Shown here one piece after another: positions 48,168 through 64,000 of a stretch of 64,000 nt of DNA. The stretch covers positions 187,473 to 251,472 of the forward strand of contig NZ_LS999834.1 of NCBI RefSeq assembly GCF_900537175.1, given 5' to 3'. The translations under genes were made by a program, and so were the position numbers. Below the pieces are notes generated by a model. The model had not been told where the DNA came from and did not search any database. It saw only the letters and a program-made list of their open reading frames with translations. This DNA comes from Lentilitoribacter sp. Alg239-R112 (lineage in GTDB: Bacteria; Pseudomonadota; Alphaproteobacteria; Rhizobiales; Rhizobiaceae). Position 1 is the stretch's first letter. The number at the start of each line of letters is the position of its first letter.

Positions 48168-48169
48168 CA

Positions 48170-48445
48170 ATGAGTTGGATGGCTTGGACTTGGCCCACAG
48201 TGCTTATTTTTGTCGCGATTTTTTCATCGATAGCATTACTAACGCTTATTGAAATAAAATATCCAGGTGGTGCAGAGCGCCTAGGCGTTTTGAAACTGGT
48301 TACGACCCGCGGTGATCGTTTGTTTTTAGGTATATTGGGTTCTGTATATATCTTCCTTGCGTGGCTGGGCTTTTTTGGACAACCATTATGGGTACCTCTC
48401 GGTTTAGCAATTCTTTGGTTTATATTTTGCTTCCGTAAAATCTGA
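48170..48445 (+). CDS. glpU: Small membrane protein GlpU (DUF2160)
   Basis: A 91-residue protein with about three hydrophobic helices (residues 5-27, 48-65 and 70-90) and a conserved loop EIKYPGGAERLGVLKLVTTR. It matches the small DUF2160 membrane protein that accompanies glycerol-type ABC transporters, named GlpU in Rhizobium leguminosarum. Its role is unknown; it may be an accessory subunit of the permease. It is the last gene of this operon. Confidence 0.88.
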   Translation: MSWMAWTWPTVLIFVAIFSSIALLTLIEIKYPGGAERLGVLKLVTTRGDRLFLGILGSVYIFLAWLGFFGQPLWVPLGLAILWFIFCFRKI

Positions 48446-48464
48446 TAAGTGCTGATCTATTAAT

Positions 48465-48474
48465 TTACTAGTAA
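48465..48474. promoter_or_regulatory. Palindrome upstream of the BlaI-like gene, candidate operator
   Basis: TTACTAGTAA is a perfect 10-base palindrome 55 bases before the BlaI-like start codon. BlaI/MecI proteins bind short dyads of this general kind over their own promoters, so it is a candidate autoregulatory site. Confidence 0.45.
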
Positions 48475-48529
48475 GTGACAATTTATTGAGCTAATAAGAC
48501 TTGAGTTAAATCGGAATTGGTGGCGTGAA

Positions 48530-48925
48530 ATGAGAAAACGCAAAACGCATGAACTGCTGACAGAAGTTGAGTTAGAATTCATGACGTTATTATGGGAATT
48601 GGGGGACAGCAGTGTTCGGGATGTTCTTTCAAAATTGGAAGAAGGTCGTGATCTCGCTTACACATCTGCCGCGACCATCTTGAGAATATTAGAGAAAAAA
48701 GGCTTCGTTTCCAGTCTTAAAGACGGTAAGTCGTTGATTTATCGCGCAATTCTTACAAAAAATCAATATCAATCTCGCCTTTTAAAGGATGTTTCTGCCA
48801 AACTTTTCGATAATACACCCGCTGCGTTGGTCGCAACACTTGTCAACGACGATCATTTAACGCAAGATGCTTTGGAGGAGCTAAGGGAACTTCTTGGGAG
48901 GAAGCTCGGAGATGATTCAAGCTGA
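48530..48925 (+). CDS. BlaI/MecI/CopY-family transcriptional repressor
   Basis: A 131-residue winged-helix protein of the penicillinase-repressor family. The N-terminal DNA-binding domain has LTEVELEFMTLLWELGDSSV and the recognition helix region AYTSAATILRILEKKGFV near residue 45. A C-terminal helical dimerisation region follows. It overlaps the M56 peptidase gene by 14 bases. The pair resembles BlaI/BlaR1, where signal-activated peptidase activity relieves repression. No beta-lactamase or penicillin-binding-protein gene is in the window, so the regulated target is unknown. Confidence 0.9.
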   Translation: MRKRKTHELLTEVELEFMTLLWELGDSSVRDVLSKLEEGRDLAYTSAATILRILEKKGFVSSLKDGKSLIYRAILTKNQYQSRLLKDVSAKLFDNTPAALVATLVNDDHLTQDALEELRELLGRKLGDDSS

Positions 48926-50051
48926 AACTATAGTAACCAGTTATATTGACATTAATTTGCTTATGGTTGGTTCAGCGCTGATATGGTTTGCCGGACGTCA
49001 GATTATAAAGAATTCTGACGCCGCCCGTGCATTTGCGGCACAGCTTCATCTTGTAAAAATACTCTTGCTGGTAACCTTTTTCTTCCCCGCTTTTCTTACT
49101 TTCTTTAGCTACTATTTTGCATCCGCATCTCCCATACCCGTTACTTTATCAGAATTAGTGCTCGCCCAATTCTTACAGGGTAATATTGAAGTAAATCCAA
49201 GCTTCTTGGAAAGCGTTCTTACCTTTCGCCAGAATGTAATGACGCAGCTTTCCGACCCAAACCACGTGTTCATCACTTTGGTATTATATGGGGGGCTAGC
49301 GACAGCTTTGTTTATGATTGTTCGTGCACTTCTGACAATGCACAAATTGTCCCGAATTTTGTCAGAAGCCCATGAATGGCGGACATCGGGCCACTTAAAA
49401 CTCATGTTAGCTGATAGAATTCGTATTCCGTTTTCCACTCGGATGTGGCGGTACCATTACGTCGTATTGCCATCTACAATGTTGGGCAATCAAATAGATA
49501 TGAAGGTATCTGTTGCACATGAATTGCAGCATTTACGCCAACGCGATGTTGATTGGGAATTTATTTTTGCACTTCTCACGCCAGTTTTCTTTTGGAACCC
49601 AGCATTTCATTACTTCAAACGAGAAATTGAGGAATTACGTGAACTATCTTGCGATCAGAATGTGTTAAAACGTGGGCTTCTATCTGCTCGTGAATATTGC
49701 GAATGCCTCATACGCGTTTGTGGTGGACGTTTTAAACGTAATAACCTGTTTAAATTGCGGGTTCCCGAGGTCGCACTCATTCAAACTAGATCCGGATTGT
49801 TTACCACAAGACCCAAAAAACTATTGGAAAATCGCTTGATGTCTGCTGTTACTGGCGGAAACGGTGTAATTTCTCGCGCTCGTCTAATTGTGGTCGCTGC
49901 AATGATGATTTCATTAGCGGGCACCCTCTCCTTTGCGGTGCAAAAACCAGCTGATTGGAGCCATGATCGATTAATGCTCTCAACAATCATCAATCTGGAA
50001 CGTTTGGAAAAACGCAATCAAGTTGGTCTTGGTTCGTACACGGCTTACTAA
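48912..50051 (+). CDS. M56-family membrane metallopeptidase (BlaR1-like, no sensor domain)
   Basis: A 379-residue membrane protein with several N-terminal helices (about residues 15-30, 45-70 and 115-145) and the zinc motif HELQH in VAHELQHLRQRDVDWEF near residue 204. The conserved RELSCDQNVL lies near 248. One further hydrophobic stretch near residue 330 is followed by a short tail. Classical BlaR1 proteins are about 580-600 residues with a C-terminal beta-lactam-binding domain; that domain is absent. ATG 48912 is preferred over TTG 48894. It probably cleaves the partner BlaI-like repressor or a membrane substrate in response to an unknown signal. Confidence 0.88.
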   Translation: MIQAETIVTSYIDINLLMVGSALIWFAGRQIIKNSDAARAFAAQLHLVKILLLVTFFFPAFLTFFSYYFASASPIPVTLSELVLAQFLQGNIEVNPSFLESVLTFRQNVMTQLSDPNHVFITLVLYGGLATALFMIVRALLTMHKLSRILSEAHEWRTSGHLKLMLADRIRIPFSTRMWRYHYVVLPSTMLGNQIDMKVSVAHELQHLRQRDVDWEFIFALLTPVFFWNPAFHYFKREIEELRELSCDQNVLKRGLLSAREYCECLIRVCGGRFKRNNLFKLRVPEVALIQTRSGLFTTRPKKLLENRLMSAVTGGNGVISRARLIVVAAMMISLAGTLSFAVQKPADWSHDRLMLSTIINLERLEKRNQVGLGSYTAY

Positions 50052-50093
50052 TTATACCAATCCGATAACAATTCCAGTATAGCACAACTTCCA

Positions 50094-51131
50094 TTATTGG
50101 CTGTTTGAATGTTTCAAAGCATTTATTAAACAATGTTGCGTGATCTGGCCAATTAGATTGGTGCTGCCACTTTCTTGAACGGCAACAACGGTTTTACTCT
50201 TATCAAGCCGCTCCATAATCTCAATAATAGGCATATCTGCAGAAACGATATCTGTTGGCGTTGGATTTGATAAAGGCTCCATAACATCAAGTGCCGTTAA
50301 CACATTAAGCGGATTCATATGTTGAACAAAATCAGCAACATATTCATTGATTGGATTGGAAAAAATTTCGCGCGGTTCACCCATTTGAACAACACGACCA
50401 CCTTCCATAATTACGATCTTGTCGCCAAGTTTAAATGCTTCATCAAGGTCGTGACTAACAAAAATAATAGTACGTTTTAATCGTGCCTGAAGTTCCAAGA
50501 GCTCATCCTGCAATCTTGTCCGTATCAAGGGATCGAGAGCAGAAAACGGTTCATCCATCAATAAAATCGGCGCCTCGGTCGCAAAAGCTCTCGCCAAGCC
50601 AACACGTTGTTGCATTCCACCAGATAATTCGCTCACTTGCCGATCAGCCCAATCGGAAAGCCCAACTAGCTCAAGTTGCTTTGCTACGCGTTCCCGTTTT
50701 TCACGATCTTTAACGCCAGAAACTTCTAATCCAAAGCCTACATTCTCGGCTACGCTTCGCCAGGGCAGCAAACCAAATTGCTGGAAAACCATAGCAACGC
50801 GTGAACGTCTGATCTGTTTGAGTTGCTGTGAAGAGGCAGTCGCAACATCAACCATACCCTGTCCAGTATTGACGTTAACTGAGCCTCTAATAACAGTGTT
50901 TAGGCCGTTTACAGAACGAAGCAATGTAGATTTTCCAGAACCTGAGAGCCCCATCAACACCAGTATCTCACCTTCATTGACATCAAATGTACAATTATGG
51001 ACACCTAATATCTGACCTGTAGAATTTTGAATGTCTTCGCGGGTTTTATCTTGGTCCATCAACGGTAATGCAGATTTCTGATCGTCGCCAAAAACAATAT
51101 TTACATCATTAAATGAAACTGCAACGCTCAT
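50094..51131 (-). CDS. choV: Choline/betaine ABC transporter ATP-binding protein ChoV
   Basis: A 345-residue ProV/OpuA-type ATPase. The extended N-terminal region is followed by LGVHNCTFDVNEGEILVLMG, Walker A GLSGSGKSTLL near residue 60, signature LSGGMQQRVGLARAFA near 165, Walker B LLMDEPFSALDP and H-loop VSHDLDEAFKLG near 220. A short CBS-like segment ends the protein. The N-terminus resembles ChoV of Sinorhizobium meliloti. It overlaps choW by four bases and is the last gene of the set. Confidence 0.9.
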   Translation of the reverse strand: MSVAVSFNDVNIVFGDDQKSALPLMDQDKTREDIQNSTGQILGVHNCTFDVNEGEILVLMGLSGSGKSTLLRSVNGLNTVIRGSVNVNTGQGMVDVATASSQQLKQIRRSRVAMVFQQFGLLPWRSVAENVGFGLEVSGVKDREKRERVAKQLELVGLSDWADRQVSELSGGMQQRVGLARAFATEAPILLMDEPFSALDPLIRTRLQDELLELQARLKRTIIFVSHDLDEAFKLGDKIVIMEGGRVVQMGEPREIFSNPINEYVADFVQHMNPLNVLTALDVMEPLSNPTPTDIVSADMPIIEIMERLDKSKTVVAVQESGSTNLIGQITQHCLINALKHSNSQ

Positions 51132-51967
51132 TTGTCACCTCCACGAAGACGCAGCATGCGATCGAGCATGATTGCAACCACCACAATGACAAATCCACTT
51201 TCAAATCCGAGTGCCGTATTTACCTGATTAAGCGCTCTTACAACTGGAACGCCAAGTCCATCGGCACCGACCAAGGCAGCAATCACCACCATAGATAACG
51301 ACAACATAATTGTTTGGTTCAAGCCAGCCATAATCTGAGGAAAAGCGTAAGGCAGTTCAATTTTTATCAGGGTTTGCATTGATGTTGCGCCAAAAGCTTC
51401 AGCAGCTTCCGTTAGCGTTTTTGGTGTTGAAGAAACACCCAAATGGGTGAGACGGATGGGCGCTGGCAAGACGAAAATAACCGTCGCAATAAGGCCGGGA
51501 ACCATACCAATGCCGAAGAATACAATAGCAGGAATGAGGTAAACAAACGTTGGTAGCGTCTGCATTAAGTCTAAAACCGGGCGCATATAGGTGTAAAGCC
51601 GAGGGCGATGGGCTGCTGCGATACCGACTGGTACACCAATTATCATACATACAACACAGGCGGACAGGACAAGCGTCAGGCTCTCTGTCATCTCCTCCCA
51701 ATAGTCTTGATTGATAATAAAGAGAAAACCCAAAAAAATGAAAAGACAAGTCTTCCAAGATCGTTGAAGCAGCCAAGTGACACCAATAAAGAATGCGACA
51801 ATGATAAGTGGATGTGGTGTTTGCAACACCCAAAGAATACCGTCTATCAGCGCTTCCAACCAATCTGCAAGCCCATCAAAAAACCATTCGCCGTTATCTT
51901 GCAGCCATTCAATGAATGATTTCGCGGCTTTACCAACCGGTATTTTTGTATCCGTCAGCCAATCCAT
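51128..51967 (-). CDS. choW: Choline/betaine ABC transporter permease ChoW
   Basis: A 279-residue ProW-type permease beginning MDWLTDTKIPVG, as ChoW does. There are five to six helices and an EAA-like loop EAAEAFGATSMQTLIKIELP near residue 185. An in-frame ATG at 51985 would add six residues. The gene lies between choX and choV; a 9-bp stem-loop separates it from choX. It forms the membrane channel for choline or related quaternary amines. Confidence 0.9.
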   Translation of the reverse strand: MDWLTDTKIPVGKAAKSFIEWLQDNGEWFFDGLADWLEALIDGILWVLQTPHPLIIVAFFIGVTWLLQRSWKTCLFIFLGFLFIINQDYWEEMTESLTLVLSACVVCMIIGVPVGIAAAHRPRLYTYMRPVLDLMQTLPTFVYLIPAIVFFGIGMVPGLIATVIFVLPAPIRLTHLGVSSTPKTLTEAAEAFGATSMQTLIKIELPYAFPQIMAGLNQTIMLSLSMVVIAALVGADGLGVPVVRALNQVNTALGFESGFVIVVVAIMLDRMLRLRGGDK

Positions 51968-51989
51968 ATCAAATCTCGCCCCCAAACAA

Positions 51990-52020
51990 CCTCAGCCAAT
52001 CGATAATTGAATGGCTGAGG
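51990..52020 (-). terminator. Hairpin between choX and choW
   Basis: CCTCAGCCA (51990-51998) and TGGCTGAGG (52012-52020) form a perfect 9-bp stem around a 13-base loop, 20 bases after the choX stop codon. The transcript continues with a short GTTGTTTG stretch, not a real U tract, so partial termination or 3'-end protection is likely. Confidence 0.7.
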
Positions 52021-52039
52021 TAATATCGATTAAAATGGA

Positions 52040-52972
52040 TTATAGACCAAGAGCCGCTTTAACAGCAGCCATTCCATCGCCGCCATCTTGTGTGGTAACT
52101 CCAGATAGCCACGTGTCGAGGACAGAAGGATTTGCTTTAAGCCATGAAACAGCGGCATCATTTGCATCCTCGCCATCGTTCAAGATTGCGCCCATGATCT
52201 CGTTCTCCATAGCAAGTGAAAATTCAAGATTGGTGAGAAGCTTTCCAACGTTTGGGCATTTGGCAGAATAACCAGCACTCGTGTTTGTATAAATTGTTGC
52301 GCCACCAAGATTAGGGCCGAAGAAATCATCCCCACCAGTTAGATAGCTCATGTCAAAGTTAGCATTCATCGGATGAGGTTCCCATCCCAAGAAAATAATC
52401 GGCTCATCTTTTTTATCCGCACGCGCAACCTGAGACAACATGCCTGGTTCGGAACTTTCTGCAAGTTCAAATCCATCAAGACCAAATGATGCATCATCGA
52501 TAATAGTTTGGATCAAACGGTTGCCGTCATTACCAGCTTCAATACCGTATATTTTGCCGTCAAGAGCATCTTTATGTTTTGCAATGTCAGCAATACTCTT
52601 AATTCCAAGTGCTGCACCTGCCGCGTTCGTCGCAAGCGTGTATTTAGCACCTTCAAGATTTGCACGTACGGTATCTACAGTTCCTGCTTCGCGGTACTTT
52701 GCAATATCACCTTCCATTGATGGCATCCAATTGCCAAGAAATACATCAATATCGCCTTTTTCCATTGATGCATAAGTCACTGGCACAGATAATAATTTTA
52801 CGTCAGTTTTATAACCCAGCGCTTCCAGAACAGTTGTCGTGGTAGCAGTTGTCGCAGTAATGTCTGTCCAACCCACATCAGAAAAAACAACTTCTTCACA
52901 ATTAGCAAATGAAATTGCCGTGGACGCAGCTAAAGCAGCAACACTTAGCCCAAAATGTTTAAATATCTTCAT
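52040..52972 (-). CDS. choX: Choline-binding periplasmic protein ChoX
   Basis: A 310-residue ProX-type binding protein with a Sec signal (cleavage near SFA-N, residue 21). The aromatic-box segments known from ChoX of Sinorhizobium meliloti are present: VGWTDIT, LGNWMPSMEGD, LEGAKYTL and FLGWEPHPMN, supplying Trp and Tyr residues that cage the trimethylammonium head. EAGNDGNRLIQ and YLTGGDDFFGPN are also shared. This supports choline as ligand, with betaine possible. I start at ATG 52972, preceded by GGGAGA. It is in line with the demethylation enzymes upstream. Confidence 0.93.
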   Translation of the reverse strand: MKIFKHFGLSVAALAASTAISFANCEEVVFSDVGWTDITATTATTTTVLEALGYKTDVKLLSVPVTYASMEKGDIDVFLGNWMPSMEGDIAKYREAGTVDTVRANLEGAKYTLATNAAGAALGIKSIADIAKHKDALDGKIYGIEAGNDGNRLIQTIIDDASFGLDGFELAESSEPGMLSQVARADKKDEPIIFLGWEPHPMNANFDMSYLTGGDDFFGPNLGGATIYTNTSAGYSAKCPNVGKLLTNLEFSLAMENEIMGAILNDGEDANDAAVSWLKANPSVLDTWLSGVTTQDGGDGMAAVKAALGL

Positions 52973-53096
52973 GTATTTATTTCTCCCATTATACAAAGAA
53001 CTCGTTGTAAGTATCTTTTCCTATCGAGGTAAAAATTGCAAATGCAAACTATTGAACTGCAAGAGTTTAGTCATTTTCTACTGGGATAGGATCGCT

Positions 53097-55610
53097 TTAA
53101 GCACGTAAAGCTTCGTTATCAGGATCAAATGGGCTCTCTTCGATGACGGTAGCACTATGGAGTTTACCTAGGATCTTTATTTCAAGCTTTGTCCCAATTG
53201 CAGAAAATTCCGGTTTAACCATCGCAAGTGCTATAGATTTACCAATCCTATAACCAAATGCGCCATGCGTAGCGCGGCCAACTAAAATACCGTCCTGATA
53301 GATAGCTTCATTGCCTCGCGCATCAGCATCTGTCACATCATGCACCTCTAACGTGACGAAATTCCAATTCAATCCTTTCTCTTGAGCTGCAATAAGTGCA
53401 TCTCGTCCAAGAAACTCACCCTTCTTGAGTTTAACAAAACGGTCTAATCCGGATTCAAAAGCATTATATTCAATAGAAAGTTCGCGCGGTATCAAACGGT
53501 AACTTTTTTCAACGGCCATTGCAGTCATTGCGCGAATACCAAATGGTTTAATTCCAAATTCCTCACCAGCCTCCATAAGTACATCAAAGATAACATTTTG
53601 TTGTTCGATGGGATGATGGAGTTCCCAACCCAGTTCGCCGACAAAATTGACCCGCAAAGCATTCGCGGTAGCTGCCCCCACGGAAATCTGCTTTCCTGTC
53701 AGCCATTTGAAGTTTTCATTAGATAGGCTCGTGCGTGTAAGTTTGCCAAGAACATCACGTGATCTTGGTCCAGCAAGCACCAATACACCATACTTCTCAG
53801 TGATCGGCTTGAGTACAACAGAACCATTATCAGGCAACAATTTGTATAAAACATCATGGTCATGGTTTTCATAAGCGCCTGCCGACACCAGATAAAAGCG
53901 ATCTGGCGCGAATTCAAACACTGTAAATTCAGATTTTACGCCGCCATATTTCGTTAAAAGATGACATAGCGCGACGCGACCACGCGTTTTTGGAACACTA
54001 TTGGCAAATATAAAGTTCAACCAATCACGTGCGCCTTTGCCCGATACTTCAATTTTGGCAAATGCGGACATATCCAACAAACCGACATTTTCATGTACGT
54101 TTTTGACCTCATTACCCACATGTTCGAAGTAATTGGAGCGGCGGAACGACCATTTTTCAACAATACGCCCATCTTCTGTTGGCAACGCATGATTATGATC
54201 CGTTAGCACATCGGCACCTAGATCTAAATCCGATTTTGAAATTTCGTAACCTTCCGGCGCAAACCAGTTGGCACGTTCCCAACCATAAACGGAACCAAAT
54301 ACCGCACCCATGCCCTTGAGGCGGTCATAGATCGGTGTCATTTTTAGTGGACGGGCGGCAAAACGCTCCTCGTCTGGATAGTGGGTTGTAAATACGTTCG
54401 CATAAGCTTCTTCGTTCTTCGCTCGCAAATAGCCTTCCGTTGCATAGGGACCAAACCGACGCGGGTCTACACCCATCATATCAATTGTGGGCTCCCCATC
54501 AACAATCCATTCCGCCAATTGCCAGCCCGCACCACCAGCAGCAGTAATTCCAAAAGAATGACCTTCATTTAGCCAGAAATTTTTCAAACCCGGCGCGGGT
54601 CCAATAATCGGCGAGCCATCAGGTGTATAAGCAATGGCACCGTTGTAAACCTTCTTAATACCGACTTCGCCGAAAGCTGGCACACGTTCAATCGCAGTTT
54701 CAATATGCGGCATAAGCCGATCTAAATCTTCCTGAAAAAGCTCATACTCGCTGTCATCACTTGGCCCATCAACATAACAACAAGGTGCACCTTTCTCGTA
54801 TGGCCCAAGCAACAACCCACCATTTTCTTCACGCATATACCAAGAACTATCAGATTCACGCAAAACACCCATTTCGGGTAACCCACTTTCTTTGCGCGCG
54901 ACGATATCTGGGTGGGGCTCGGTGACGATATATTGATGTTCAACCGGGATGACCGGCACATCCAACCCTACCATTTTACCAGTTTTTCTAGCAAAGTTAC
55001 CCGTGCAGGAAACCACATGTTCGCAGGTGATATCACCTTTATCTGTTTTAACTATCCATGTCCCGTCATCAAACTGTTCGATAGCTTCCACGGTCGTATA
55101 ACGCTCAATGCGTGCGCCCATATCTCGAGCACCCTTTGCCAAAGCCTGAGTGAGATCAGCGGGTTGAATATAACCGTCATCGGGATGCTGAATAGCACCA
55201 AGCAGCCCTTCCGTATTGCAAAGTGGCCAAATTTCTTTCACCTGCTCAGGCGTTAGAATATTGAGCGGAATACCGAGTGTTTCAGCAACACCAGCATAAT
55301 ACATATACTCGTCCCAGCGATCTTTTGTCTTAGCTAAACGAATATTACTGACATCTGAAAAACCAACGCTTACACCGGTTTCTTTCTCCAGTTCCTTGTA
55401 AAATTTGACGGAGTATTTATGGATTTGACCAACGGAGTAGCTCATATTAAACAAAGGTAAGAGGCCCGCTGCATGCCATGTTGAACCGGACGTAAGCTCC
55501 TTGCGCTCTATCAAGCAACAATCGGTCCAGCCCTTTCGCGCCAAATGATAAAGTGTTGAAACTCCAACAACTCCACCGCCTACCACGACTACACGCGCTT
55601 TATTTTCCAT
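53097..55610 (-). CDS. Dimethylglycine dehydrogenase-like flavoprotein with GcvT folate domain
   Basis: An 837-residue enzyme with an N-terminal DAO-type FAD domain (dinucleotide motif VVVVGGGVVGVSTLYHL, residues 7-23). His46 in STWHAAG matches the covalent flavin attachment site of dimethylglycine dehydrogenases. The C-terminal half (about 430-837) is a GcvT-like tetrahydrofolate domain. The expected reaction is oxidative N-demethylation of dimethylglycine or sarcosine, with the methyl carbon captured as methylene-tetrahydrofolate. The start at 55610 has GGGAGG eight bases upstream; the ATG at 55646 lacks support. It sits between soxG and choX on the same strand. Confidence 0.9.
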   Translation of the reverse strand: MENKARVVVVGGGVVGVSTLYHLARKGWTDCCLIERKELTSGSTWHAAGLLPLFNMSYSVGQIHKYSVKFYKELEKETGVSVGFSDVSNIRLAKTKDRWDEYMYYAGVAETLGIPLNILTPEQVKEIWPLCNTEGLLGAIQHPDDGYIQPADLTQALAKGARDMGARIERYTTVEAIEQFDDGTWIVKTDKGDITCEHVVSCTGNFARKTGKMVGLDVPVIPVEHQYIVTEPHPDIVARKESGLPEMGVLRESDSSWYMREENGGLLLGPYEKGAPCCYVDGPSDDSEYELFQEDLDRLMPHIETAIERVPAFGEVGIKKVYNGAIAYTPDGSPIIGPAPGLKNFWLNEGHSFGITAAGGAGWQLAEWIVDGEPTIDMMGVDPRRFGPYATEGYLRAKNEEAYANVFTTHYPDEERFAARPLKMTPIYDRLKGMGAVFGSVYGWERANWFAPEGYEISKSDLDLGADVLTDHNHALPTEDGRIVEKWSFRRSNYFEHVGNEVKNVHENVGLLDMSAFAKIEVSGKGARDWLNFIFANSVPKTRGRVALCHLLTKYGGVKSEFTVFEFAPDRFYLVSAGAYENHDHDVLYKLLPDNGSVVLKPITEKYGVLVLAGPRSRDVLGKLTRTSLSNENFKWLTGKQISVGAATANALRVNFVGELGWELHHPIEQQNVIFDVLMEAGEEFGIKPFGIRAMTAMAVEKSYRLIPRELSIEYNAFESGLDRFVKLKKGEFLGRDALIAAQEKGLNWNFVTLEVHDVTDADARGNEAIYQDGILVGRATHGAFGYRIGKSIALAMVKPEFSAIGTKLEIKILGKLHSATVIEESPFDPDNEALRA

Positions 55611-55657
55611 TATCTTTGCCTCCCATTTTGTAGGGTTCTTTCCCATTCTACCAAGAG

Positions 55658-56206
55658 TTACATTTTCACAGCAAGCTCTCTATTTCCCACAATTAGCATC
55701 CCCCAAACATGAGGAAAAAAGGATCGCCAGACATCAAGTTTGAAACTGTCATCTCTGTCACGATGAAGGACAATTTGGGCTGTATCAAACAACGTTCTTT
55801 CGCTTCGACCAACCTTAAATTTACGAAAATCCAGAGGATTTCCAATGGCAAGAAGGTCCGTAACTTCACTACCTTCAAGCAAAATAGATATTTCTCGGTC
55901 ACTTATATCTGTCAGACTATGCGGTGTTGTTTTATAAAGTTTTGTAAATGCGGATGCTATGCTATCTCTATCTTCCGCCGACGTTTTGATAACCCATTCA
56001 TCCGGGCCAAGCATCGCTGCATATCCAGTTTCTACATCTGTGCGTGCGCCAATTTGATCAGGTAGTTTGAACCCAAGAGCTTTAGACGCCTTGGCAATCA
56101 AACTTACATCAATTCGCAAACTAAAACGTACTTCTTCCGGTAGCTGGAGAAGCTTTATGGGACCGCTATGGTCGGATAACATTTCTATCGCATTGGTATT
56201 TGCCAT
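55658..56206 (-). CDS. soxG: Sarcosine oxidase gamma subunit SoxG
   Basis: A 182-residue subunit of heterotetrameric sarcosine oxidase with a GcvT-like fold. Features include IKLLQLPEEVRFSLRIDVSL and GPDEWVIKTSAEDR, and the C-terminal FKLDVWRSFFPHVWGM, which is the usual SoxG ending. The sequence is the least conserved of the four subunits, as in the family. It lies 11 bases after soxA, completing soxBDAG. Confidence 0.9.
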   Translation of the reverse strand: MANTNAIEMLSDHSGPIKLLQLPEEVRFSLRIDVSLIAKASKALGFKLPDQIGARTDVETGYAAMLGPDEWVIKTSAEDRDSIASAFTKLYKTTPHSLTDISDREISILLEGSEVTDLLAIGNPLDFRKFKVGRSERTLFDTAQIVLHRDRDDSFKLDVWRSFFPHVWGMLIVGNRELAVKM

Positions 56207-56217
56207 CGATCCAGTTC

Positions 56218-59211
56218 CTAAAGTTTCAATCGTTCGCCGTCAGGATCATAAAATACAGGATCGCAAATCTGCGCTGCATATGTCTTATCAGGCATTGGAA
56301 TATAGATAGTGGACCCTTTGAGATTGTGTCCACCTTCAACAAGAGCCAGTGCGATTGAGCGGCCGAGTGCCTCACTCCAGTAGGAGGATGTAACATGGCC
56401 AATCATTTTCATTGGTATAGGCTGATCGGGGTCAGCGACTATCTGAGCCCCCTCCTCCAAAACAACATTGGGGTCATCGCTCAACAGACCGATAAGTTGT
56501 TTCCGGCCTTCAGCTACCAGATCAGGGCGTTTAAGCGACCGCATACCAACAAAATCTTCTTTCTTTTTCCCGATCGCCCAGCTCATGCCAGCGTCATGAG
56601 GTGTCACGGTGCCATCCGTATCCTGTCCAACGATAATATAACCCTTTTCAGCACGAAGGACATGCATCGCCTCTGTTCCATAGGGGCAAATGTCATATTG
56701 CTGTCCCGCTTCTATTAACTTTTCCCAAACTATACGCCCATAACGGCTTGGCACATTAATCTCAAAGCCAAGTCCACCAGTAAAACTGAGACGAAATAGG
56801 CGACATGGCAAATCAAAAATTGAGCATTCTGCAACTGACATATGAGGGAATTTTTCATCAGAAAGATCAAGGCTCGTAACAATCGGTTCCAAAATTTTGC
56901 GGGCATTTGGCCCATTAAGTGCAATCACAGACCAATGTTCAGACGTCGAAGTCAGCCATACCTGAAGATCTGGCCATTCTGTCTGCAAATAGTCCTCCAT
57001 CATATTCAGAACACGGGCGGCTCCGCCTGTTGTGGTAGTCACATGGAACACATCTTCACTTAATCGACCAATCACACCATCATCAATAATGAAACCATCT
57101 TCACCTAGCATCAGACCATAACGGCAGCGACCAGTTGCAAGCTTTGTCCACGGGTTTGTATAAATTCTATTCATGAACTCCGCTGCATCCGGACCAACAA
57201 CTTCTATTTTGCCCAGGGTAGATGCATCAAAAATACCCAACGATTGCCGCGTTTTTTTACATTCACGTTTTACTGCCTCGTGCATATTTTCATTATTTTT
57301 CGGAAAATACCGTGCACGCCGCCATAGCGCCACGGGTTCAAACACGGCTCCATTCTCCTCAGCCCAGCCATCGATCGGAGTCTTTCTGGTTACATCAAAT
57401 AATTCACCACGATGATAACCTGCAAATGCACCGAAAGTTGTCGGAGTATAAGGCGGACGAAATGTTGTTAAGCCAACCTCAGGTGCTGGTTTTCCAACTG
57501 CATCAGACGCAATCATCAATCCATTCAAATTCGACATTTTACCTTGGTCGGTTGCCATGCCATTAGTTGTGTAACGCTTTACATGTTCAATGGAATGCAT
57601 ACCTTCGCGGACCGCAAGGCGAATGTCTTTTGCAGTCACATCATTTTGGAAATCAATAAATGCTTTTGCACGCAAGGAATCTAAATCTGTTGGAAGTTCT
57701 TTGCATATTTTCCCCGTGCCATCATCATCAATTTCAACGATGTATTTTGCTTTCTTTGCCTTAAAACCAGCAGCCTTCGCAGCATTAACACCAGCAATAT
57801 CGCCATCATGCAGAACCTTGGATACACCCCAAAGACCGCGTCCCGCACCCGCAATAAAGCAATCCTCTGATTTCTCACCTGGCAGAAATACTTCGTTTTC
57901 GGCATCCCAGTCTAACGAACCCTTAGTGTGTGAAAACAGGTGTAAACTTGGTGTCCACCCACCAGACATTAACAAACAGTCACAAGATACTATTTTGGCT
58001 GCACCAACCGTATTTTCGTTCACAGAATTTACACGAACGGAGGAAATACGAAGACGTCCAGAAGTACCCGTTACAGTATGGCCAATATATGTGGTGATAC
58101 CGAGCGATTTAGCCCTTTGAACCAACTCAATCTTAACGTCATCTCGAATGTCGACAATAGCAGCAACCCTAGCGCCAGCACTGTGAAGATCAAAGGCGAC
58201 GAACCATGCACTATCATGAGAGGTAACAATCGCCGGCTGATTACCAACTTTGACACTATAGCGATTAAGGTATGTCTGCGCAGCCCCTGCCAACATAACA
58301 CCCGGACGATCATTTCCATCGAACACTAGTGGTTTTTCCAGGGCGCCCTGGGCAAGAACCACTTGGCCAGCTCGCGCGTGCCACATACGTTCTCGAGGTG
58401 CTCCTTCGGGCAATTCCGCAAGATGATCCGTGACCTTCTCACAAAGCCCTAACATATTTTGGTGGTAATATCCGATTGCAGTGGTTCTGCACATCACGCG
58501 AACGCCGAGTTCGTCTAACTCTGCGGTCTTACTAGCTAACCAACCCTTAGTCGTTTCGTTATCAATTTTAACATCAGATAGAGATAGTAAAGAACCACCA
58601 ATTTGATTATTTTCGTCAACCAGAACAACGTCAGCACCACTTATGGCCGCTCTTCGTGCGGCGGCTATTCCCGCTGCACCGGCGCCAACAATCAGAACAT
58701 CGCAATGCAAATATCGAGACGCATAATTATCGGGATCAGGCAGACTTGGCGATTTTCCTAACCCCGCAGAAGCGCGAATAATTGGCTCATAAACGCTGTC
58801 CCAAAAACTTTTTGGCCACATGAAGGTTTTATAATAAAATCCGGCTGAAAAAATGGCTCCCATACGATCGTTGATGGAACCAATATCGAAATTAAGGCTT
58901 GGCCAGTTGTTCTGGCTTACAACCTCCAATCCTTCATAAATCTCCTGAATAGTCGCTCGAGTATTTGGTTCTGACCGCCCTGTTCCTCGACACGTGCCAA
59001 CAAGCGCATTTGGTTCATCCGATCCAGCACTCACAAAGCCGCGTGGTCGATGATACTTAAATGATCGACCGACAAGATGGACGCCGTTTGCGATAAGTGC
59101 AGAAGCAACCGTATCGCCTTCGAAACCCTGATAACGCTTTCCATCAAAGGTAAAATTAATGGGTCGTTCGCGGTTTATAAAGCCACCTTCTGTGTTCCGA
59201 AATGCATTCAT
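56218..59211 (-). CDS. soxA: Sarcosine oxidase alpha subunit SoxA
   Basis: A 997-residue alpha subunit. The N-terminal ferredoxin-like part has INFTFDGKRYQGFEGDTVAS. A dinucleotide-binding domain follows (VLIVGAGAAGIAAARRAA near residue 175) for NAD, and the C-terminal GcvT-like domain (about 600-990) binds tetrahydrofolate and receives the sarcosine methyl as methylene-tetrahydrofolate. RYTTNGMATDQGKMSNLNG near 500 is a family hallmark. The start overlaps the soxD stop by four bases. Full length is close to the roughly 965-1000 residues of other SoxA proteins. Confidence 0.96.
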   Translation of the reverse strand: MNAFRNTEGGFINRERPINFTFDGKRYQGFEGDTVASALIANGVHLVGRSFKYHRPRGFVSAGSDEPNALVGTCRGTGRSEPNTRATIQEIYEGLEVVSQNNWPSLNFDIGSINDRMGAIFSAGFYYKTFMWPKSFWDSVYEPIIRASAGLGKSPSLPDPDNYASRYLHCDVLIVGAGAAGIAAARRAAISGADVVLVDENNQIGGSLLSLSDVKIDNETTKGWLASKTAELDELGVRVMCRTTAIGYYHQNMLGLCEKVTDHLAELPEGAPRERMWHARAGQVVLAQGALEKPLVFDGNDRPGVMLAGAAQTYLNRYSVKVGNQPAIVTSHDSAWFVAFDLHSAGARVAAIVDIRDDVKIELVQRAKSLGITTYIGHTVTGTSGRLRISSVRVNSVNENTVGAAKIVSCDCLLMSGGWTPSLHLFSHTKGSLDWDAENEVFLPGEKSEDCFIAGAGRGLWGVSKVLHDGDIAGVNAAKAAGFKAKKAKYIVEIDDDGTGKICKELPTDLDSLRAKAFIDFQNDVTAKDIRLAVREGMHSIEHVKRYTTNGMATDQGKMSNLNGLMIASDAVGKPAPEVGLTTFRPPYTPTTFGAFAGYHRGELFDVTRKTPIDGWAEENGAVFEPVALWRRARYFPKNNENMHEAVKRECKKTRQSLGIFDASTLGKIEVVGPDAAEFMNRIYTNPWTKLATGRCRYGLMLGEDGFIIDDGVIGRLSEDVFHVTTTTGGAARVLNMMEDYLQTEWPDLQVWLTSTSEHWSVIALNGPNARKILEPIVTSLDLSDEKFPHMSVAECSIFDLPCRLFRLSFTGGLGFEINVPSRYGRIVWEKLIEAGQQYDICPYGTEAMHVLRAEKGYIIVGQDTDGTVTPHDAGMSWAIGKKKEDFVGMRSLKRPDLVAEGRKQLIGLLSDDPNVVLEEGAQIVADPDQPIPMKMIGHVTSSYWSEALGRSIALALVEGGHNLKGSTIYIPMPDKTYAAQICDPVFYDPDGERLKL

Positions 59212-59510
59212 TTTGCAGTTCCTGAAAGTTTAGAAATATCTGGTCGCTTCTCTCCAGCTTTATAAGTAAGTAAAAATTTATCACTCACAGTATCTCGAAC
59301 CGCGTTAAAAAAACGAGCACAACCATGAATGTGCCGCCAGCGCTCAAAATGAGCACCCTTCGCATTGGTGCGAATAAAAAGGTAATCCTTCCATTCTTCA
59401 TCAGTTTGAGACGATGGATCAGACGGCCGCGCAATATGCGCCTCTCCAGCATAGGAAAACTCTAACTCGGGCCGTTCTTCGTCACAATAAGGACAGCGGA
59501 TCAATAGCAT
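59208..59510 (-). CDS. soxD: Sarcosine oxidase delta subunit SoxD
   Basis: A 100-residue zinc-binding subunit. The Cys pair in MLLIRCPYCDEE (residues 6 and 9) and the His and Cys in WRHIHGCARFF near residue 62-66 form the expected zinc site. I start at ATG 59510, matching the family; the longer frame to 59555 would overlap soxB. It overlaps soxA by four bases and follows soxB by ten bases. Confidence 0.94.
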   Translation of the reverse strand: MLLIRCPYCDEERPELEFSYAGEAHIARPSDPSSQTDEEWKDYLFIRTNAKGAHFERWRHIHGCARFFNAVRDTVSDKFLLTYKAGEKRPDISKLSGTAK

Positions 59511-59520
59511 AGTAGTTCTC

Positions 59521-60774
59521 CTAATGTGCGACAGCAGCAGCGGCTGCTTCATCAATTAGACGACCTGTGGTGAAGCGTTCCAGCGTAAACGGAGCATTGA
59601 TTGGATGCGGTTCATCCTTGGCAGTCGTCCATGCCAATGTGTGAGCAGCACCTGGAGTGGCCTTAAAGCCACCAGTGCCCCATCCACAATTCACGTAAAG
59701 GCCTTTCACAGGTGTTTTACCAAGGATTGCAGACCGATCCGGCGTTACATCGACAATGCCACCCCATTTGCGCAGCATGCGCATTCGCGTGAAAATTGGA
59801 AACATTTCAGTAATTGCAGCAACATTATGCTCGATAAGCGATAAGCCACCCCTCTGGGAATAGCTGGTATATTGATCAGTACCAGATCCAATAACCAATT
59901 CGCCCTTATCTGACTGACTAATATAAGCATGCACCGCATTAGACATGACAACACATGGAAATACAGGTTTGATTGGCTCACTAACAAGTGCTTGCAGTGG
60001 AAAACTCTCCAGCGGCATTTTCACACCGGCAGTTTGCAAAATTGTTGATGTGTGACCAGATGCAGAAACAGCAATTTTCCTAGCTTTAATAAAGCCCTTA
60101 GCTGTCTCAACACCTTCAACGGCACCTCCATTATCACGCGTGATCGATTTAACCGCGCAATTTTGAATAATATCCACACCCATTGCCGCCGCAGCTCGCG
60201 CATAACCCCAGGCAACTGCATCGTGTCGAGCTGTTCCCGCCCGCCTTTGCAATGCACCACCTAACACCGGATAGCGCGCATTTTTTGCAATACTTAGCGG
60301 AGGACAGAATGCCTTTGATTCTTCCGGCGTAAGCCATTGATTGTCGACACCATTTAGTCTGTTAGCATGAATGTGACGTTGGAAACTTTGTACATCATGA
60401 ACATTATGCGCAAGCATCAAAACACCGCGTTTTGAATACATGATGTTGTAGTTCAACTCCTGTGCAAGACCGTCCCAGAGATCAAGTGCGTGATCATAAA
60501 TACCGGCGCTTTCGTCATACAAATAATTTGAACGTATGATGGTGGTATTTCGACCGGTATTGCCTCCCCCAAGCCAGCCTTTATCGATAACTGCAACATT
60601 AGTTATGCCATGTTCTTTAGCAAGATAATATGCAGCGCCCAAACCATGCCCTCCAGCACCAACGATTATTACATCGTACTCTGATTTGGGTTGCGCATCA
60701 GGCCACTGTTTTTCCCAGTTCTTGTTGCCAGTAAACGCATTTTTAAGGAGCGAGAAAGCAGAAAAATGTGTCAC
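59521..60774 (-). CDS. soxB: Sarcosine oxidase beta subunit SoxB
   Basis: A 417-residue DAO-fold subunit that oxidises sarcosine. FAD-binding motif [18 protein letters not shown] is at residues 35-52, and [15 protein letters not shown] lies near 72. His184 in ARHDAVAWG corresponds to the covalent FMN site of the heterotetrameric enzyme. The C-terminal [11 protein letters not shown] closes the flavin pocket. With SoxA, D and G it makes glycine, hydrogen peroxide and methylene-tetrahydrofolate or formaldehyde. It is the first sox gene, 93 bases after the MttB-family gene. Confidence 0.97.
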
Positions 60775-60797
60775 AACAACGTATCCCTTATGATCAT

Positions 60798-60820
60798 AAA
60801 GGAATTCGCTGCATTCCTTT
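60798..60820 (-). repeat. Low-GC hairpin between the MttB-family gene and soxB
   Basis: AAAGGAAT (60798-60805) and ATTCCTTT (60813-60820) are perfect 8-base arms around a seven-base loop in the 93-base gap. The low GC content makes it a weak structural element. It may mark a processing point or nothing. Confidence 0.35.
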
Positions 60821-60867
60821 CAATACAACGGAAGTATAGGCATGGAAAGAAATGGAGGTTGTGAAAA

Positions 60868-62442
60868 TCATGTAAAAGCATCTGGCATAGAATCCTTCTT
60901 GCTTGTAACAAACTCTAATAATAACCTGTCAATTTCAGGATCAATCGGTGGCGCTTCATAGTTTTCAAGCCACGATCGACAAAGCTTATTTGCTCTTGCC
61001 TCAATAGGTTGCTCACCTTCCAGTTGCCATTGCTCATAAGAATTATTATCAGCAACGGATGAACGAAAGAATGCTGTTTTGAAATTAGCTTGCGTGTGAT
61101 CACAACCAAGATAATGACTGCCTGGCCCTACCTCAAAAATTGCATCCATTGCCTGCTCGCTTTCCGTCAGGCTAATCCCTTCTGCAAAGCGCTGAAGCAT
61201 ACCTAGTTGATCCACGTCAATCATGAATTTTTCGTATGAGGAAACAAGCCCGCCTTCTAACCAACCTGCAGCATGAAGCACAAAATTTGTACCAGCCATA
61301 AGAGTCATATTTAATGTATTCGAAGTTTCGTGTGCTGCTTGTGCATCGGGCAACTTTGAACCGCACAAACTTCCACCCGTTCTAAATGGAAGTTTCAACC
61401 GTCGAGCAAGTTGAGCGGCACCATATGATATTAATGATGGTTCAGGTGTGCCGAAAGTCGGTGCGCCTGATTGCATCGAGATCGAGGCAGCAAACGTTCC
61501 AAACACCACCGGGGAGCCAGGGCGAACTAACTGGGTAACAGCTGCACCAGCCAAAACTTCCGCTAAAACCTGCGCTAATGTGCCGGCCACTGTAACGGGG
61601 CTCATCGCACCAGCTAAAATAAAGGGTGAGATGATGCATGCTTGGTTAGCTGCGGCATATGTTTTAAGCGCACCTAACATAACGCCATCAAAAACCATCG
61701 GCGAATTTGCATTGATCAAGTTGATAACAACGCAATTATTATCAACAAATTCCTCACCAAACAGGATTTTACACATCTCTATCGTGTCTTGTGCACGCTC
61801 AGGTGCAGTCACTGAACCCATAAATGGTTTATCCGAATAACGCATGTGCGCGTAGATCATGTCGAGGTGTCGCTTATTCACGGGTATATCGACGGGTTCA
61901 CAAACGGTTCCACCTGAATGATGAATTGCTGGTGCCATATAGGCAAGTTTTACGAAATTATGAAAATCGTCAATGGTTGCGTACCGTCGCTCGCCTTCTA
62001 AATCCCGGACAAAGGGCGGCCCGTACACGGGAGCAAAAACAGTTGAATTACCGCCAATCTCAACAGAGCGTTTCGGATTTCTTGCATGCTGGATAAATGA
62101 CGCGGGTGCAGTTTTTAAAAGCTCCTGACATAAACCATTTGGGATATAGACACGCTCTCCATCTACGCGGGCTCCGGCATCTCGCCACAATTGCAAAATT
62201 TCTTCATCGCCACGAAATTCTATCCCAATTTCTGCCAAGATTTTATCAGCATTTTTTTCGATAATCTGAAGGCCCGATTCATCAAGCACCTCAAATGGCG
62301 GGAGGATTCGCTTTATATATGAATTTTGCGTTCCAGAACCTTCGTTGCTTCTTGCAGCACGTCGAGCCGAGGCTCCACCACGCGCTACTCTTCTTGATCT
62401 GCTATGGTGCTCAACACCAAGCGCCTCTTTATCGTCCCTCAT
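60868..62442 (-). CDS. MttB-family corrinoid-dependent amine methyltransferase (no in-frame amber codon)
   Basis: A 524-residue TIM-barrel protein of the MttB/MtgB superfamily, which transfers a methyl group from a quaternary or tertiary amine to a Co(I) corrinoid protein. The frame is uninterrupted, with no internal UAG, so it is not a pyrrolysine enzyme. It belongs with the non-Pyl branch that includes MtgB (glycine betaine), MtpB (proline betaine) and MtcB (carnitine). Segments such as GGTVCEPVDIPVNKRHLDM and GPGSHYLGCDHTQANF are typical. ATG 62442 follows GAGGAG; the longer frame to 62556 lacks such support. Context suggests glycine betaine as substrate, but this is inferred. Confidence 0.9.
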   Translation of the reverse strand: MRDDKEALGVEHHSRSRRVARGGASARRAARSNEGSGTQNSYIKRILPPFEVLDESGLQIIEKNADKILAEIGIEFRGDEEILQLWRDAGARVDGERVYIPNGLCQELLKTAPASFIQHARNPKRSVEIGGNSTVFAPVYGPPFVRDLEGERRYATIDDFHNFVKLAYMAPAIHHSGGTVCEPVDIPVNKRHLDMIYAHMRYSDKPFMGSVTAPERAQDTIEMCKILFGEEFVDNNCVVINLINANSPMVFDGVMLGALKTYAAANQACIISPFILAGAMSPVTVAGTLAQVLAEVLAGAAVTQLVRPGSPVVFGTFAASISMQSGAPTFGTPEPSLISYGAAQLARRLKLPFRTGGSLCGSKLPDAQAAHETSNTLNMTLMAGTNFVLHAAGWLEGGLVSSYEKFMIDVDQLGMLQRFAEGISLTESEQAMDAIFEVGPGSHYLGCDHTQANFKTAFFRSSVADNNSYEQWQLEGEQPIEARANKLCRSWLENYEAPPIDPEIDRLLLEFVTSKKDSMPDAFT

Positions 62443-62445
62443 GCT

Positions 62446-62479
62446 TGTCTCCTCACACGTTATTGTCTCCCACGTTATT
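62446..62479 (-). repeat. Short tandem repeat in the leader of the MttB-family gene
   Basis: Two copies of an element reading AATAACGTGnGAGnAGACA in the transcript (one with a 3-base difference) lie head to tail just before the start codon. Each carries a purine-rich Shine-Dalgarno-like core, and the proximal copy serves the ATG at 62442. Confidence 0.5.
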
Positions 62480-62678
62480 CTTCTTGCATCAAAAATCAAA
62501 TAAAAAATAACACTTGAAATAATAGGATTTTTCAATGGACTAATAGTAATTTTCAATGGTTTTAAAATTCGCTTGCACTCATAAAAAACTGTGTTACGGC
62601 TAATGAATATGACAAATAAATAACAGCATATTTGACCTTCAAATGCTGCATGTTTTCTTGTGAAATAAAGGCGCTACG

Positions 62679-63377
62679 ATGTCTGAAGAAGAAGAAATCA
62701 TACTCTCTGAATTGCCAGACGATGAGCTGGTTCTCCAGATGCATGACGACCTTTATGATGGGTTAAAAGAAGAGATACTCGAAGGAACGCAATTGCTTCT
62801 TGATCGCGGCTGGGAACCTTATGATGTTTTGACCAAATCCCTCGTTGCAGGCATGGCAATTGTCGGTGAAGATTTTCGTGATGGTATTTTATTTGTGCCA
62901 GAAGTATTGCTAGCCGCAAATGCAATGAAAGCAGGAATGGGCATTTTACGACCACTTCTCATTGAAACTGGCGCACCGAAACTTGGCAAGATGGTTATTG
63001 GGACCGTTAAAGGTGACATTCATGATATTGGCAAAAACCTTGTTGGCATGATGATGGAAGGTGCAGGCTTTGAGATTGTTGATCTTGGCATCAATAATCC
63101 TGTCGAGGACTATATCGAAGCATTGGAAAAAGAAGATGCGCAAATTCTTGGTATGTCCGCGCTTTTAACCACAACCATGCCTTACATGAAAGTCGTTGTG
63201 GACACCATGATCGAAAAAGGCATGCGTGACGATTATATAATTCTTGTTGGCGGCGCCCCACTTAACGAAGAATTTGGAAAAGCCGTTGGTGCTGATGCAT
63301 ACTGCAGGGATGCAGCCATTGCAGTGGAAATCGCTAAAGATTTCATGGCACGTAAACATAATTCAATGAACGCGTAA
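62679..63377 (+). CDS. Corrinoid (cobalamin-binding) protein, MtgC/MttC-like
   Basis: A 232-residue methyltransferase corrinoid protein. An N-terminal four-helix cap (about residues 10-95) is followed by a Rossmann-like cobalamin domain. The base-off/His-on motif DxHxxG is present at Asp113, His115 and Gly118 (GDIHDIGKNLVG). The downstream SALLTTTM and LVGGAPL segments complete the binding site. It would accept the methyl group from the MttB-family enzyme and pass it to tetrahydrofolate. It is divergent from the MttB-family gene across 236 bases with no cobalamin riboswitch visible. The metF-like gene follows 29 bases later. Confidence 0.93.
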   Translation: MSEEEEIILSELPDDELVLQMHDDLYDGLKEEILEGTQLLLDRGWEPYDVLTKSLVAGMAIVGEDFRDGILFVPEVLLAANAMKAGMGILRPLLIETGAPKLGKMVIGTVKGDIHDIGKNLVGMMMEGAGFEIVDLGINNPVEDYIEALEKEDAQILGMSALLTTTMPYMKVVVDTMIEKGMRDDYIILVGGAPLNEEFGKAVGADAYCRDAAIAVEIAKDFMARKHNSMNA

Positions 63378-63406
63378 TCTATTCTCGTAACCAAATGGGA
63401 GAGTTC

Positions 63407-64000
63407 ATGTCATTATCTAAAATACCTGCATCGATAGAGCTATCACCAAAACAAATTTTCGATTGTGAAAATCTTGAAGAATTGATGCCTGCATTTACCC
63501 ATGTATATATTCCCGATTTGGGTGTTGAAACAGCAGATTCAATGGTTGATGCGTCGAAGAGGCTAACCGAAGCTGGATACCAGCCGGTTCCGCATTTTGC
63601 TGCGCGACGGATCACAACCAAGGCTGTCCTAGAGTTGCGTATTAAAAGATTGACTGAAGAAGCTGATATAAAAGATGTTTTGATAATTGGAGGTGGCTTA
63701 CCTGTTCCCAACGGAGATTTTGTGTCTTCATTGGCACTGCTAGAAACTGGCTTGTTTGATAAATATGGAATTAGGAATATTGGCGTTGCGGGTCATCCAG
63801 AAGGATCACCGGATTTTAGCGATGACACCGCCTTAGAAATATTGCAACTCAAACAAAATTTAGCGAACCGCTCCGATGCTAATTTTCGCATAGTAACCCA
63901 ATTTGGCTTCGATGCAGTGCGCTTCATAAACTGGGCCAAACACATCAAAGCAACGGGTATAGATTTACCAGTACATATGGGAGTTGCCGGTCCAGCAAAA
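63407..64000 (+). CDS. Methylenetetrahydrofolate reductase-like protein (N-terminal part)
   Basis: The first 198 codons of a MetF-family TIM-barrel flavoprotein; the frame is open to the window end, so it is truncated by the boundary. Recognisable elements are the early PDLGVETADSM, the VPHFAARR segment, DVLIIGGGLPVP, and NIGVAGHPEGSPD near residue 120. In this context it may oxidise methyl-tetrahydrofolate to methylene-tetrahydrofolate, opposite to the biosynthetic direction. GGGAGAG precedes ATG 63407. It follows the corrinoid gene by 29 bases on the same strand, so they are probably cotranscribed. Confidence 0.85.
   Translation, partial: MSLSKIPASIELSPKQIFDCENLEELMPAFTHVYIPDLGVETADSMVDASKRLTEAGYQPVPHFAARRITTKAVLELRIKRLTEEADIKDVLIIGGGLPVPNGDFVSSLALLETGLFDKYGIRNIGVAGHPEGSPDFSDDTALEILQLKQNLANRSDANFRIVTQFGFDAVRFINWAKHIKATGIDLPVHMGVAGPAK

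Follow-up and report, generated by a model that had tools for sequence, protein, structure and literature searches.

Predicted choline and glycine betaine catabolism of the MtgBCDE type, with a second corrinoid protein gene, in Lentilitoribacter sp. Alg239-R112

The window analysed here is a stretch of 64,000 nucleotides (bases 187473–251472 of contig C2) from Lentilitoribacter sp. Alg239-R112, probably a marine relative of rhizobia, whose 3.9 Mb genome is assembled in four contigs and is 99.17% complete. One Lentilitoribacter strain is described as marine in the title of a paper. From position 50094 onwards it carries a gene cluster, including a gene of the MttB superfamily, that with high probability directs the catabolism of choline and glycine betaine by a corrinoid-dependent system of the MtgBCDE type; gene content, gene order, orthology, pocket residues and the finding of neither a canonical MetH nor a PF00848 protein are observed directly, and the reactions, their directions, the substrate and the regulation are predicted from them. 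The mechanism is already known, and the locus is a further member of it, because both the MtgBCDE system (PMC12478193) and the split methionine synthase (PMC5764234) are in print. Two points, both drawn from sequence, have no description in the published literature searched, mostly by title: a second copy of the corrinoid protein gene mtgC beside mtgB, and, at the locus for methionine synthase on contig C1, an MttB of a diverged subfamily.

Gene set and proposed route

Genes were called by family scans (NCBIfam/TIGRFAM and Pfam) with the cut-offs of the models, and the scores lie far beyond chance. The scans confirm every gene and strand of the series described in the original prediction, with the minus-strand order mttB–soxB–soxD–soxA–soxG–DMGDH-like–choX–choW–choV, where DMGDH stands for dimethylglycine dehydrogenase; the gene limits required revision, in that three starts are moved (62442, 59510 and 55610) and the series runs past 64000 to betB and betA. 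With betB and betA following metF2, adjacent genes encode choline import, the oxidation of choline to glycine betaine and the three demethylations. The features are as follows, with window numbering continued beyond 64000.

50094–51131, minus strand: choV, choline ABC transporter ATPase (TIGR03415 equivalog, 514 bits, cut-off 484)
51128–51985, minus strand: choW, choline ABC transporter permease (TIGR03416 equivalog, 453 bits, cut-off 363)
52040–52996, minus strand: choX, choline-binding protein (TIGR03414, 448 bits, cut-off 379)
53097–55610, minus strand: DMGDH-like flavoprotein with a folate-binding GcvT domain (PF01266, PF16350, PF01571 and PF08669)
55658–56206, minus strand: soxG, sarcosine oxidase gamma (PF04268, 31 bits, above the cut-off of 21)
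56218–59211, minus strand: soxA, sarcosine oxidase alpha (TIGR01372, 1518 bits, cut-off 1164)
59208–59510, minus strand: soxD, sarcosine oxidase delta (TIGR01374, 128 bits, cut-off 116.5)
59521–60774, minus strand: soxB, sarcosine oxidase beta (TIGR01373, 693 bits, cut-off 529)
60868–62442, minus strand: mtgB, MttB superfamily, predicted glycine betaine:corrinoid methyltransferase (PF06253, 765 bits, cut-off 25)
62557–62678, no strand: divergent intergenic region between the mtgB open reading frame and mtgC (read from the sequence)
62679–63377, plus strand: second copy of mtgC, corrinoid (B12) carrier protein (PF02607 and PF02310)
63395–64291, plus strand: metF2, divergent methylene-tetrahydrofolate reductase (PF02219, 36.5 bits, cut-off 24; the window ends at 64000)
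64400–65890, plus strand: betB (TIGR01804, 723 bits, cut-off 669)
65856–67562, plus strand: betA (TIGR01810, 840 bits, cut-off 732)

The revised starts are each preceded by a Shine-Dalgarno-like sequence and are the likely ones within longer open reading frames, namely 60868–62556 for mtgB (524 residues from 62442), a frame opening at 59555 for soxD, and 53097–55646 for the DMGDH-like gene (849 residues with DAO, FAO_M and GcvT domains). In the Protein Data Bank (PDB), ChoX best matches 2REG (E 1.9e-138), whose molecule names include a putative choline ABC transporter, and the DMGDH-like protein best matches the DMGDH 5L46 (E 6e-186), followed by the dimethylglycine oxidase 1PJ5 (9e-101); several close relatives of the latter query carry the source name dimethylglycine dehydrogenase, and it is 90% identical to one labelled Lentilitoribacter sp. 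The four adjacent subunit genes soxB, soxD, soxA and soxG (the last by Pfam only) constitute a sarcosine oxidase of the heterotetrameric type. MetF2, with its 36.5 bits against 292 for the other methylene-tetrahydrofolate reductase of the genome, best matches the MetF 7XG9 (E 6e-53), which we take to derive from a catabolic one-carbon pathway, and reaches 1B5T only at E 7e-5. The translation of the window mtgC contains the stretch DIHDIGKN. The intergenic region at 62557–62678 presumably holds the promoters of both mtgB and mtgC, and Rfam scans of window positions 48000–64000 and of L003, a stretch reaching 15 kb beyond the window (window coordinate = L003 + 59000), each gave 0 matches.

Other parts of the system lie on contig C1, where a single stretch (L004) also holds the second of the two PF06253 genes of the genome, a second corrinoid protein gene and a DUF1638 gene.

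L004:7469–8506: mtgE, a gene of the betaine–homocysteine methyltransferase (BHMT) family (PRK07534, 539.5 bits, cut-off 338)
L004:8544–10214, minus strand: C1 MttB (PF06253)
L004:10411–11112: C1 mtgC, corrinoid protein
L004:13870–14826: mtgD, methyl-tetrahydrofolate:corrinoid methyltransferase (PRK07535, 403 bits, cut-off 259)
L004:14896–16941: RamA/RACo-like activase (RACo domains PF14574, PF17651 and PF17650; the NCBIfam RamA model gives 106 bits, short of its cut-off of 500)

Thus, the tetrahydrofolate methyltransferase and the RamA-like activator that were to be sought beyond position 64000 are present in the genome, but tblastn detected no copy of either within 15 kb of that position in L003. 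The scanned genes beyond 64291 in L003 are betB, betA, a DUF6502 gene, a DUF5666 gene and a guanine deaminase gene, further open reading frames there being read from translation.

In the proposed route, ChoXWV would import choline, which BetA and BetB would oxidize to glycine betaine; the window MttB, acting as MtgB, would pass one methyl group to Co(I)-MtgC, from which MtgD on contig C1 would pass it to tetrahydrofolate, and MetF2 would oxidize the methyl-tetrahydrofolate to methylene-tetrahydrofolate. The DMGDH-like enzyme would then convert dimethylglycine to sarcosine and SoxBDAG would convert sarcosine to glycine, both with a folate-binding GcvT domain, while the RamA-like activase (and the DUF1638 protein) on C1 would recharge Co(II). 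Gene content and pocket residues in this way support the predicted order, in which a corrinoid step comes first and two flavoprotein steps follow, in an organism whose enzymes are of the oxygen type. The Co(I) cycle in an aerobe, whose combination with an H2O2-generating sarcosine oxidase was flagged in the original prediction as worth study, is not odd in itself, because the B12-dependent methionine synthases of aerobes also go through Co(I) and a reactivation-type gene is present here.

A split methionine synthase (the C1 MtgC, MtgD and MtgE), which would replace MetH, would either share MtgD and MtgC with this route or be the source from which they were copied. Since the metH model TIGR02082 yields only four separate genomic pieces, corresponding to two corrinoid proteins, one pterin-binding protein and one homocysteine-binding protein and all below the cut-off of 1010.85, a canonical MetH was not found in the genome, and methionine is most likely made by the split enzyme standing in for it; among 14 controls, the same model matched in 11 and exceeded the cut-off in 7. 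A PF00848 (Rieske) protein was likewise not found in the genome (0 matches, with matches in 4 of the 14 controls), and it is to this family that we take GbcA, the alpha subunit of the Rieske glycine betaine monooxygenase GbcAB, to belong.

The corrinoid route itself, which the original prediction proposed rightly in outline, is already in print: the aerobic MtgBCDE system appeared in PNAS in September 2025 (Mausz et al., PMC12478193) and was shown genetically in Ruegeria pomeroyi DSS-3. There, methionine synthesis and the use of glycine betaine both depend on mtgC and mtgD, whose mutants fail to grow on glycine betaine even with methionine, and MetF2 is the most induced protein (PMC12478193). 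The DSS-3 system resembles the present one in its PF06253 MtgB, corrinoid MtgC, pterin-binding MtgD, MetF2, RamA and DUF1638 proteins, in its sharing of parts with a split methionine synthase and in being described for bacteria without metH (PMC12478193), but it differs in that two MtgC proteins are encoded here, one of them in the catabolic cluster together with MtgB and MetF2. The split enzyme of Phaeobacter inhibens, described by Price et al. 2018, has the same set of PF02574, PF00809 and PF02607+PF02310 proteins with DUF4445 RamA-like and DUF1638 helpers (PMC5764234), whereas here the enzyme is accompanied by two MttB genes and one more corrinoid protein. The Sinorhizobium meliloti mtg locus shares the same kinds of genes with the C1 neighbourhood; however, S. 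meliloti keeps MtgBCDE, two reactivation genes and a cobalamin operon together (PMC12478193) and also has MetH (PMC5764234), while the mtgB orthologue here stands within a cho/sox/bet cluster. As later demethylation genes have already been reported, often near mtgBCD, in marine Alpha-, Gamma- and Deltaproteobacteria (PMC12478193), the co-location as such is not new.

The predicted glycine betaine enzyme and competing explanations

The assignment of the window MttB to the MtgB clade derives from its 765-bit score, its clade placement and its pocket residues. Its closest PDB match is 4YYC from S. meliloti (E 7e-266), followed by the Desulfitobacterium hafniense MtgB structures 2QNE (6e-124) and 9YCE (4e-122), and in a maximum-likelihood tree of 57 sequences, free of duplicates of our own genes from overlapping loci, it clusters with proteins of same-genus genomes and, further out, with 4YYC. 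It is about 44% identical to MtgB of the anaerobe D. hafniense and keeps all four of the residues Y94, N199, R309 and H345 (MtgB numbering), which were proposed as betaine contacts in Desulfitobacterium MtgB by docking (PMC6855144), so that its pocket would fit glycine betaine. It does not score as a pyrrolysine MttB (TIGR02369, 283.7 bits against a cut-off of 525), and no stop codon, amber included, occurs inside the match.

An unlikely alternative is that the window MttB mainly uses another donor, such as proline betaine, carnitine or dimethylsulfoniopropionate (DMSP), and that the choline genes are its neighbours by history. MttB-superfamily members elsewhere do act on proline betaine, carnitine, gamma-butyrobetaine or phosphocholine (PMC12478193, PMC12155760), and the pocket resemblance depends on the docking study (PMC6855144); nevertheless, the four proposed betaine residues are kept, the neighbouring genes specify choline, dimethylglycine and sarcosine, which are the compounds flanking glycine betaine, and the S. 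meliloti locus has been interpreted as MtgBCDE (PMC12478193).

About equally unlikely is a main first demethylation by the BHMT-family protein of contig C1 (MtgE/Bmt), from betaine to homocysteine, with the corrinoid genes serving other donors or methionine only. In addition to the PRK07534 betaine–homocysteine S-methyltransferase score of this gene, a dissenting result bears on the question, in that methionine is formed in vitro, without cofactors, by the Bmt of P. inhibens, from betaine directly and also from DMSP (FEBS J 2025, PMC12366255). Against this, the nearest solved relative of the C1 protein is of the MetH type (1Q7M, E 4.5e-37), with the BHMT 1LT7 far behind (2.6e-11), the S. meliloti MtgE homologue lacks betaine-binding residues and is dispensable on betaine if methionine is supplied (PMC12478193), and the catabolic genes here adjoin mtgB, not mtgE. 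The claim that corrinoid chemistry acts instead of BHMT was therefore too strong: the corrinoid route is supported, but a BHMT-family gene is present and the P. inhibens result leaves the exclusive wording unsettled.

Several points weigh against the MtgBCDE-type reading. The betaine contacts are docking predictions; the MtgB pocket position F353 is a glycine in the window MttB, a residue found in 142 of the 156 MttB proteins of the alignment, which includes a few duplicates of our own genes; SoxG stays under the TIGR01375 cut-off, with 112 against 144 bits; MtgD, the activase and MtgE are encoded on a different contig from mtgB, so that co-regulation is putative; and the C1 Bmt/MtgE could demethylate betaine itself.

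A reading in which the fast-diverged C1 MttB does the work on glycine betaine, leaving the window copy as a spare, is very unlikely, for although the C1 gene occupies the slot of the mttB orthologue in relatives, all seven members of its subfamily have replaced Y94 with S or L and H345 with N or C, and among the matches listed for the 296 other family genomes (at most four candidates scored in each) none is more than 42% identical to it.

The second mtgC and the MttB subfamily of contig C1

The original prediction correctly recognized the corrinoid protein of the window but missed that it duplicates, almost without change, a subunit of a split methionine synthase. The two mtgC genes share 95% amino acid and 92% nucleotide identity, over the open reading frame only, the DNA similarity starting at the ATG and stopping 18 bases short of the end of the C1 frame; synonymous divergence (dS) is 0.34 and nonsynonymous divergence (dN) 0.035, versus dS of 1.4–1.6 against two same-genus genomes. 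A co-duplication of mttB and mtgC in a single event was rejected as too simple an account, given that the mtgC pair is near-identical while the mttB pair is strongly diverged (40% identity, on a C1 stem of 0.95); gene conversion between the mtgC copies and a late mtgC duplication both remain open. A second mtgC is uncommon in the family but not unique, since mtgC occurs in 217 of 297 family genomes and 8 of these, our own included, list two or more matches. Duplicated mtgC is not reported in the accessible text of Mausz et al. 2025, in which MtgC of roseobacters is described as phylogenetically distinct from that of D. hafniense (PMC12478193).

The C1 MttB keeps N199 and R309 but carries S94 and C345. 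With six database proteins it forms a clade (support 100/100), placed with moderate support (79.9/93) beside a larger clade that holds MtgB and some further paralogues. Of 7994 scored candidates, 68 proteins passed, comprising its own record, six at 65–72% identity and a remainder at 41% or less; the search of the 297 family genomes listed matches best first. Among the seven members, position 94 is S in six and L in one, position 345 is N in six and C in one, and R309 is kept in seven and N199 in four, while all seven end in a near-identical C-terminal tail that lies beyond the end of the printed MtgB matches. An AlphaFold model of the C1 protein has an MttB-type fold (mean predicted local distance difference test score, pLDDT, of 81, and below 50 in the tail at 525–556) and best matches 4YYC and the MtgB 9YCE. 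Decay of the C1 gene into a pseudogene is not favoured, as 219 of 503 aligned columns, R309 among them, are invariant in the seven members (versus 339 in seven MtgB-type sequences) and the tail is near-identical.

As side observations at the C1 locus, a cobalamin riboswitch (RF00174, 53.6 bits) lies at L004:5208–5590 on the minus strand, and genes resembling those of cobalamin biosynthesis, named from translation, adjoin the locus and the riboswitch. Elsewhere on C1, a weak Meth_synt_2 match (28.9 bits, G000:C1:379653–380681) falls in an open frame of 381 residues that perhaps encodes a core-MetE-like protein.

Layout in relatives and significance

A scan of named genomes found at least 80 loci of relatives, and the layout counts use 65 of 80, each of at least 21 kb with 10 kb flanks, beyond which remoter genes are missed; 15 shorter loci are left out. 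In all 65, mtgC is divergent to the mttB orthologue, at a distance that never exceeds 5.6 kb and stays within 1.5 kb in 56 of them; mtgD is present in 57, ramA in 51, mtgE in 50, metF2 in 17, and DUF1638 at 50% identity or more in 56 and below 50% in 9. No locus within these flanks holds any sox gene, two mtgC genes or a DMGDH-like gene at 50% identity or more (five hold one below 50%), and the choV and choW matches, in 23 and 19 loci, are all below 50%. The 15 short loci hold mtgC in 10 and sox in none, and the stretches of 6.7 to 20 kb that carry the sox operons of three same-genus genomes contain no mttB. The usual locus is therefore mtgE/mttB/mtgC/DUF1638/(metF2)/mtgD/ramA, which makes the window layout unusual: the mtgB orthologue, an mtgC copy and metF2 stand in a catabolic cluster, and the rest lies on C1, where the diverged MttB holds the slot that the mttB orthologue fills in relatives. 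One hint that the clustered layout exists in relatives too comes from a database MttB (90%, P0001) and a database DMGDH (92%, P0190), for each of which the longest contig is given as 10022 bases.

Among further observations, a penicillinase-repressor-type gene (PF03965) and, after it, a BlaR1 M56-type peptidase gene (PF05569) lie just ahead of the cho genes (window 48530–50051), the DUF6502 gene stands directly past betA on the same strand (L003:8684–9532, or 67684–68532 in window numbering), and FTHFS, for one-carbon oxidation, is encoded 54 kb further along C2. In other genomes, distant DMGDH-like genes (35–41% identical to that of the window) occur near other MttB paralogues (29–44%) at L142, L145, L148, L035, L052, L058, L063, L074 and L156, with L148 showing the DMGDH-like gene only and a partial MttB match at a contig end; such loci may represent further MttB/flavoprotein demethylation pairs.

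Choline and glycine betaine are osmolytes that abound in the sea, and the aerobic B12 route for glycine betaine was shown genetically only in 2025. As a tentative proposal, the two MtgC copies may have split roles, the window MtgC serving betaine catabolism with MtgB and MetF2 and the C1 MtgC serving methionine synthesis, with the tailed C1 MttB subfamily and its altered pocket feeding another methyl donor to the same split methionine synthase. Substrates are known for few members of the superfamily, and the C1 subfamily is a candidate to act on a new one. Where one MtgC is shared, betaine use is not removable without methionine auxotrophy, whereas two copies let the roles be tested apart, so that the genome offers a natural experiment for separating the two roles of MtgC.

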